Source: Corynebacterium sp. 74A
GTDB taxonomy: Bacteria; Actinomycetota; Actinomycetes; Mycobacteriales; Mycobacteriaceae
Direction of reading: 5' to 3'
DNA: 64,000 bases
Assembly (NCBI RefSeq): GCF_008930665.1
Contig: NZ_PQMG01000001.1
Location: 248,001 to 312,000, forward strand
The notes below the pieces were generated by a model. The model made no database searches. It was not told where the DNA came from and saw only the letters and a list, made by a program, of their open reading frames with translations. Positions within the stretch are counted from its first letter, which is position 1. Every line of letters starts with the position of its first letter. Shown in pieces: positions 25,952-27,432 of this stretch. The translations under genes were made by a program, and so were the position numbers.

Positions 25952-26012
25952 TTTCAACGCACCACAGCTCACGGAACTGTTGATACAGAACCAAGCGAGC
26001 AGGTGATGCAAT

Positions 26013-26085
26013 GCGGATGTAGCGCAGCTGGTAGCGCATAACCTTGCCAAGGTTAGGGTCGCGGGTTCGAGTCCCGTCATCCGCT
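26013..26085 (+). tRNA. tRNA-Gly, anticodon GCC (copy 1)
   Basis: A 73-base tRNA with acceptor GCGGATG/CATCCGC, anticodon loop in CCTTGCCAAGG and T arm CGGGTTCGAGTCCCG. Identical to copies 2 and 3. Confidence 0.97.
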
Positions 26086-26141
26086 CTGGTTCATTTATGG
26101 GCACTGATCACGATCATGTGCTTGGTATTTGAACAGCGCAC

Positions 26142-26213
26142 GCGCGTTTAGCTCAGCGGGAGAGCGCTTCCCTGACACGGAAGAGGTCACTGGTTCAATC
26201 CCAGTATCGCGCA
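26142..26213 (+). tRNA. tRNA-Val, anticodon GAC (copy 1)
   Basis: A 72-base tRNA: anticodon stem-loop CTTCC-CTGACAC-GGAAG and T arm ACTGG-TTCAATC-CCAGT. The acceptor stem has a T-T mismatch at pair 6-67, present in both copies. Confidence 0.96.
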
Positions 26214-26250
26214 CGCAGAACAAGGCATTGTTCTTTAAAACAACATGCAT

Positions 26251-26323
26251 GCGGATGTAGCGCAGCTGGTAGCGCATAACCTTGCCAAGGTTAGGGTCGC
26301 GGGTTCGAGTCCCGTCATCCGCT
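26251..26323 (+). tRNA. tRNA-Gly, anticodon GCC (copy 2)
   Basis: Identical to the copy at 26013. It lies 37 bases after tRNA-Val copy 1, inside the duplicated unit. Confidence 0.97.
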
Positions 26324-26332
26324 CTGATACAC

Positions 26333-26348
26333 CACCCCTTCGGGGGTG
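26333..26348 (+). terminator. Small CACCCC-TTCG-GGGGTG hairpin
   Basis: Stable 6 bp UUCG tetraloop hairpin nine bases after tRNA-Gly copy 2. Without a T-run it may be a processing signal or weak terminator. Confidence 0.45.
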
Positions 26349-26395
26349 TCCTCCTTACACTTAAGGCGTGTATCGTTGTAAATACTAAGTGACAC

Positions 26396-26466
26396 GGTGG
26401 AATGGCCGAGTGGTGAGGCAAAGGTCTGCAAAACCTTGTACACGGGTTCGATTCCCGTTTCCACCT
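26396..26466 (+). tRNA. tRNA-Cys, anticodon GCA
   Basis: A 71-base tRNA with acceptor GGTGGAA/TTCCACC, anticodon loop CTGCAAA (GCA) and T discriminator base as usual for Cys. It sits between the two copies of the duplicated Val-Gly pair. Confidence 0.96.
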
Positions 26467-26474
26467 CCACTTAA

Positions 26475-26546
26475 GCGCGTTTAGCTCAGCGGGAGAGCGC
26501 TTCCCTGACACGGAAGAGGTCACTGGTTCAATCCCAGTATCGCGCA
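26475..26546 (+). tRNA. tRNA-Val, anticodon GAC (copy 2)
   Basis: Identical to the copy at 26142, including the T-T acceptor mismatch. Eight bases follow tRNA-Cys, so the set is one transcript. Confidence 0.96.
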
Positions 26547-26583
26547 CGCAGAACAAGGCATTGTTCTTTAAAACAACATGCAT

Positions 26584-26656
26584 GCGGATGTAGCGCAGCT
26601 GGTAGCGCATAACCTTGCCAAGGTTAGGGTCGCGGGTTCGAGTCCCGTCATCCGCT
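26584..26656 (+). tRNA. tRNA-Gly, anticodon GCC (copy 3)
   Basis: Identical to copies 1 and 2. It is the last gene of the tRNA island, directly before a terminator. Confidence 0.97.
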
Positions 26657-26663
26657 CTCTTAG

Positions 26664-26704
26664 AACTCCCGTCTTCTCCTTCTCGGAGAGGGCGGGAGTT
26701 TTCT
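26664..26704 (+). terminator. Intrinsic terminator of the tRNA island
   Basis: Stem AACTCCCG/CGGGAGTT with an inner CTCC/GGAG pair, followed by TTCTCT. It separates the tRNA transcript from ribD. Confidence 0.8.
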
Positions 26705-26712
26705 CTGCGTGG

Positions 26713-26718
26713 CACAAT
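26713..26718 (+). promoter_or_regulatory. Candidate -10 box of ribD
   Basis: CACAAT, ending seven bases before the ATG at 26726, as for a leaderless transcript. Confidence 0.45.
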
Positions 26719-26725
26719 GACCGTT

Positions 26726-27432
26726 ATGGCCCCACTCCCCTCACCCGCAGTGAGATCCTCGGCGCCGAGTGCCCGCCCTCGCAGCCCGAGATCCGCGCTG
26801 TCTGCGTCTCCTCGCTCAATGGCTCCGCCACGCTCGAGGGAACCTCCGGCTCCCTGGGCAATGCTAATGACACCCGAGTGCTCAGCACGCTGCGTGCATG
26901 GGCCGACGTGGTACTCGTTGGCGCCGGCACCGTCCGCGCCGAAAACTACGGCGGGGTGCAGCTTAATCCCCAACAGCGCCAGCACCGCCGCGCCTTAGGG
27001 CAGGCGGAAGCTCCCCCGCTGGCTGTACTCACCGGCTCGGCGGAGATGGACACCACCTCTCGCTTCTTTCGCGACAGCACCACCGGACCGATCGTGATCA
27101 CTGGCGCAGACAATGCGGAAAGAGCAGCCGAATTCGCGGCCGCCGGCGCGGAGCTGGTGCTGCTTGAGGAGCTCTCCATCGACCACGCCATAACAGCACT
27201 GCGGGAGCGTGGCTATCACCGCATCAGTATTGAGGGCGGCCCCAGCGTCTACGGCCATGTGCTTGCCCAAGGGCTGATCGATTATCTCCACTTAAGCCTC
27301 GCCCCGGTGATCACCCCCATGGATCAGCCGCTGTTTAGCTATCCTGCTGCGCCCACCCAGCTGCAGCTTGATGCCGTCCACCACGATGAAGAGGGCTATC
27401 TTTTCACCCGCTACCGCCTGCCACGCACCTAG
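26726..27432 (+). CDS. ribD: RibD C-terminal-type (dihydrofolate reductase-like) reductase, with a 5' frame problem
   Basis: A reductase of the RibD C-terminal / DHFR-like fold, about 235 residues, probably acting on a pyrimidine intermediate of riboflavin synthesis. Motifs: VSSLNGSATLEGTSG, WADVVLVGAGTVRAENYGG, and ISIEGGPSVYGHVL near residue 165. It lies just before aftC, as Rv2671 does in mycobacteria. Oddity: the conserved body frame has no ATG, GTG or TTG start between the tRNA and the first conserved block. The ATG at 26726 is one frame off. Adding one C to the CCCC run at 26730-26733 would give M-A-P-T-P-L-T-R-S-E-I-L-G, a convincing N-terminus. The other in-frame start is an ATG at 26578, inside the spacer next to tRNA-Gly, and would translate through that tRNA. 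Confidence 0.75.

Follow-up and report, generated by a model that had tools for sequence, protein, structure and literature searches.

In Mycobacterium tuberculosis, upregulation of the reductase Rv2671 can compensate for the loss of dihydrofolate reductase (PMC8262987). In Corynebacterium glutamicum, 707 out of 2,147 mRNAs (about 33%) are leaderless, and the study that describes them reports an AUG or GUG start for all of these mRNAs and a TAnnnT motif 3–11 bases before the start site (PMC3890552). An Rv2671-like gene with a defect at its start was analyzed in a stretch of 64,000 nucleotides from Corynebacterium sp. 74A, referred to as the window (G000:C1:248001-312000, in a genome of 11 contigs and 2.46 Mb). 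Most likely, the strain has recently lost one base through an unremarkable deletion or the sequencing has slipped; a novel mode of translation initiation is the less likely reading.

The body of the gene is an intact frame of 234 codons (26728-27432; coordinates are positions in the window and all window features described lie on its + strand) that is bounded by stop codons at 26569 and 27430. The body matches the Pfam domain RibD_C (PF01872) with an E-value of 1.5e-24 over profile positions 4-196 of 197, and its best NCBIfam model is NF010663 (PRK14059, "pyrimidine reductase family protein") with 246.8 bits at a cut-off of 184. The closest solved structures are PDB 2p4g (E-value 6.9e-39), a hypothetical protein, and Rv2671 (4xrb, E-value 5.6e-36, plus six further entries), and nearly the whole body matches Rv2671, 2p4g, and NF010663. 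The preliminary description had named the gene ribD, which is wrong. The models TIGR00326 and TIGR00227 score far under their cut-offs, with TIGR00326 reaching 47.9 out of the required 156.35 bits over profile positions 149-309 of 343 only, and a full bifunctional RibD is encoded by a separate gene (G000:C1:170400-171350, 258.1 bits), which rules out an assignment to the riboflavin gene ribD. The reductase domain PF01872 is common to the bifunctional RibD (TIGR00326) and the window gene, whereas the deaminase part of RibD is absent from the latter. Judged by these profile matches, the gene is a stand-alone member of the pyrimidine reductase family (Rv2671-like) with a putative role in NADPH-dependent dihydrofolate or pyrimidine reduction. 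Across 74 other homologues, 25 columns reach a conservation of 90% or more; the window gene keeps 23 of them and has S in place of T and E in place of D at the other two. The genome also contains a dihydrofolate reductase gene (C1:664839-665324). A literature search on "pyrimidine reductase family protein" returned no paper, and 12 stretches of viral contigs that matched a pattern included no relative of the gene.

Start codons in the frame of the body are found as an ATG at 26578, six bases ahead of a tRNA-Gly gene, and then as GTG codons at 26878 (codon 51) and 26908 and at later positions. No ATG, GTG, or TTG lies in this frame between 26578 and 26878, so that the absence of an in-frame start from the end of the tRNA to the first conserved block, pointed out in the preliminary description, is borne out by the frame check. 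The same check agrees with that description in the remaining coordinates and frames, including an ATG at 26726-26728 that is out of frame with the body and lies seven bases behind a -10-like box, and a run of four Cs at 26730-26733. The ATG at 26726 shares its frame with a second ATG at 26717, and this frame is open until a stop codon at 26996. The resulting out-of-frame reading of 90 codons (26726-26998) is the peptide that would be expected if ATG 26726 is used and no shift occurs. Based on base composition, the chance of finding no start codon over the 41 codons between the end of the tRNA and the conserved block is approximately 21%, about one in five, and the absence by itself therefore proves little. 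The missing start is notable because all of the other 75 homologues examined start in frame near the N-terminus.

The tRNA gene upstream, tRNA-Gly(GCC), was identified by ARAGORN at 26584-26657 (Rfam RF00005, 26584-26656) and closes a tRNA array. The frame of the body stays open backward across this gene to the spurious ATG at 26578. A start at this position is ruled out because a strong terminator-like hairpin lies between it and the body and because the first part of the protein would be a translated tRNA gene. The hairpin resembles an intrinsic terminator and occupies 26663-26705, behind the tRNA array and ahead of the reductase gene; the fold of 26662-26712 has an energy of −30.7 kcal/mol (z = −5.06, 0 out of 200 shuffles as low) and a pattern scan gave a match at 26680-26698 (one found and 0.6 expected). 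The array itself is duplicated (26011-26670) and contains three near-identical tRNA-Gly(GCC) genes, whose 83-nt copies are 95–98% like the reference, and two copies of tRNA-Val(GAC) in a 196-base repeat (26142-26337 and 26475-26670, 97% identity), with a tRNA-Cys gene in between. The repeat ends 60 bases upstream of the defect. Matching tRNA repeats are present at the collinear place in genome G188.

G188 is the closest relative found (73% protein identity). It is collinear with the window, with blocks that are mostly 71–87% identical outside the tRNA genes, and in a DNA search of 242 genomes it provided, besides the window's own match, the only match over the greater part of the query (73% DNA identity). 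The G188 gene carries the stretch GGCACAAT, seven bases, and then an in-frame ATG beginning MSPTPLSRSQILG. The window carries the same GGCACAAT stretch and seven bases before ATG 26726, followed by one base fewer before the shared CCCACTCCCCTC; the nucleotide alignment places the missing base within 26729-26740 and shows that the four-C run is not kept by G188 at that spot. The loss of one base just behind the ATG, suggested in the preliminary description, is thus supported by a collinear relative whose ATG is in frame and follows an identical box at an identical distance.

The 76 loci examined combine that of the window with 69 others from the genus and six named records (five from Rhodococcus and one from Corynebacterium sp. 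MSK297), and only the window locus lacks an in-frame start nearby. Counted gap-free from the start of the alignment, an in-frame ATG is located at about residues −15 to +12 in 73 of the 75 other homologues and at −25 (L028) and −21 (L039, Rhodococcus) in the remaining two. The presence of a near-N-terminal in-frame start among the NF010663 homologues and its absence from the window gene set the latter apart from its family, and relative to these intact homologues its frame is interrupted by a one-base indel, as in a pseudogene. Within the genus, 160 out of 201 genomes, including that of the window, have a match at an E-value of at most 0.001; 15 of these matches are weaker than 1e-10 and may represent true RibD, as does the second match of the window genome itself (3.2e-4 at C1:170505-170645). 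At an E-value of at most 1e-10, 145 of the 201 genomes have a match and 56 have none, although a few of these genomes are incomplete. The reductase gene looks dispensable, based on the presence of RibD and dihydrofolate reductase elsewhere in the genome and on these 56 genomes without a match.

The position of ATG 26726 is conserved, and it is probably the start codon of a leaderless mRNA. A TANNNT motif is present 4–8 bases before the corresponding ATG in 49 of 73 homologues and before none of 138 in-frame ATGs inside the genes; the latter are a rough control, given the bias of coding sequence against TA. This placement resembles the leaderless arrangement of C. glutamicum. In the window, a -10-like box (CACAAT, 26713-26718) precedes the ATG by the seven bases that are common to G188, and a promoter role is proposed for it from this comparison, but the box is not a full TANNNT in either genome and a sigma-70 promoter scan found no promoter at this position. 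Overall, the gene probably has a promoter of its own, from which a leaderless mRNA starting at ATG 26726 would be made.

Apart from its start, the body is intact. The comparison with G188 gave a dN of 0.19 and a dS of 1.09 (NG86), with 40, 31, and 120 differences at codon positions 1, 2, and 3, respectively. An analysis with outgroups revealed no excess of change on the window branch (a mean of 9.4 unique changes, vs. 10.9 in G188), and there is no sign of decay in the body beyond the one base. The substitution pattern indicates that the body has evolved under purifying selection until very recently. Its intactness, together with this selection, means that the frame break is either recent or an error in the record.

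To judge the reliability of the record, 366 gene pairs with a total of 133,647 aligned residues, drawn from 464 kb of the assembly, were checked against G188 for frame breaks, and no second clear case of a small frameshift in coding sequence was recognised. In the window, a first run flagged four of 60 G188 ORFs, three of which are 5′ extensions or an antisense ORF and one of which is the reductase gene, and a looser run flagged five of 62, the fifth (1498408) being a 5′ extension. Overall, the G188 ORFs flagged against the window genome numbered eight out of 152 to the right, seven out of 160 to the left, and five out of 62 in the window; the reverse direction gave four out of 152, seven out of 159, and one out of 61, of which only 177464 was aligned because these flags concern breaks in G188. 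Fifteen of the 366 pairs lacked a near start: the reductase gene, 13 pairs that were judged by eye to be mechanical 5′ extensions, antisense ORFs, or non-genes, and 1392951, which was aligned and judged no clear gene. In the pair 1269073, the codons from −45 to +60 include no start; this pair contains in-frame stop codons in the window genome and looks like an antisense ORF. Ten early-ending matches were listed, three of them at the edge of the fetched sequence and six (1367635, 1458586, 1439288, 1346025, 1392951, and 1490225) explained by eye as differing ends or non-coding stretches; the tenth (1413044) is a permease ORF of G188. Matches in a second frame numbered 20 in 18 ORFs, consisting of the reductase gene, 15 ORFs that were aligned and read by eye as 5′ or non-coding extensions, 1265446, and 1413044.

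The latter two ORFs were considered further. G188:C1:1265446-1265703 is highly similar to the window genome at about C1:58023 with a one-base difference in a G-run, but this 85-codon ORF has no Pfam match and is probably not a gene; the stretch may be conserved non-coding sequence. The ORF 1413044-1414480 encodes a whole amino-acid permease of 478 amino acids in G188 (PF13520) that was matched only in pieces and in three frames outside the window (G000:C1:203155-203779, within L146); for its first 261 residues, the window genome gave no match with an identity of 50% or higher. This broken permease points to gene decay in the window genome. It is flanked, as read by eye, by a putA-like gene and a long helicase-methyltransferase-like gene; the latter is a frame of 1689 residues (L146:9876-14945, G000:C1:197876-202945, also outside the window) that appears to fuse a helicase and a methyltransferase and is possibly a restriction or phage-defence protein. 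The lack of any other clear small frameshift in the survey speaks against an assembly with many indels overall and is compatible with a single error.

The observation of a missing in-frame start is correct, and in-frame copies are present in relatives. The likely readings are reduced to a recent frameshift of the ordinary kind and a faulty record. A real and recent one-base deletion behind ATG 26726 with loss of the reductase is the favoured reading, to which we assign a probability of about 0.55; both the presence of the deletion in the cell and the loss of the enzyme are inferred. The leaderless mRNA would begin at 26726 and the ribosome would initiate at its AUG, and the deletion directly behind this codon would shift it into the wrong frame up to the stop codon at 26996. 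The product would be a nonsense peptide of 90 residues, so that the reductase is probably lost, not being made or being made only in traces, and the rest of the gene would not yet have decayed. Several points count against such a deletion: a body without further decay fits a record error or continued use of the gene equally well, the difference in the G-run of the 85-codon ORF was only provisionally taken as non-coding, and the incomplete box and the empty promoter scan weaken the leaderless start. An error in sequencing or assembly, with the base missing from the record and the living gene in frame, is the less probable of these two readings and the main rival of the deletion. It would account for a single defect in an otherwise intact gene under purifying selection when all of the other homologues examined are in frame, and the defect lies in a C-rich stretch shortly behind a repeat that can disturb the placement of reads. 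However, the C-run is only four bases long, and the survey recognised no comparable frameshift elsewhere.

Continued production of the enzyme from the sequence as recorded, either by a −1 slip in the C-rich first codons after ATG 26726 or from a rare start codon in the frame of the body, is improbable. The intact body under purifying selection would agree with it, and by eye the sequence offers a proline codon at 26738 where re-pairing shifted back by one base could lead into the frame of the body ahead of the conserved block. Against this, no classical −1 slippery heptamer was seen by eye and the relative G188 needs no shift. An unusual start codon had been among the options of the preliminary description and, like slippage, gained no specific support. 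A search for CTG, ATT, ATC, ATA, and ACG in the frame of the body (26658-26790) found only ATC at 26755, and the leaderless mRNAs of C. glutamicum all start with AUG or GUG (PMC3890552). A stronger version, in which the whole species carries a genuine frame break and still makes the enzyme through an efficient −1 slip over the initial five codons of the leaderless mRNA, is very improbable. Least credible of all is a phase-variable switch in the C-run, which the preliminary description had also raised. The defect does sit in a run of identical bases, but known slippage tracts comprise about seven or more bases and the run here comprises four; the run is missing at that spot in G188, and the product would be a metabolic enzyme of the reductase type.

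The locus matters mainly for annotation. A gene caller would probably misplace the start, either by extending the gene through the tRNA-Gly to ATG 26578, as in the mechanical ORF list, or by beginning 50 codons too late. A real deletion would mean that the strain lacks an Rv2671-type reductase. The locus would bear on the decoding of leaderless mRNAs only if production of the protein continues. The locus shares with known single-base frameshift pseudogenes a one-base difference in length, homologues that are in frame, and the absence of the gene from part of the genus. In contrast to the usual frameshift pseudogenes, the break in the window affects codon 2 of a gene that is probably leaderless, and as a result the body stays wholly open and resembles an ORF without a start codon.
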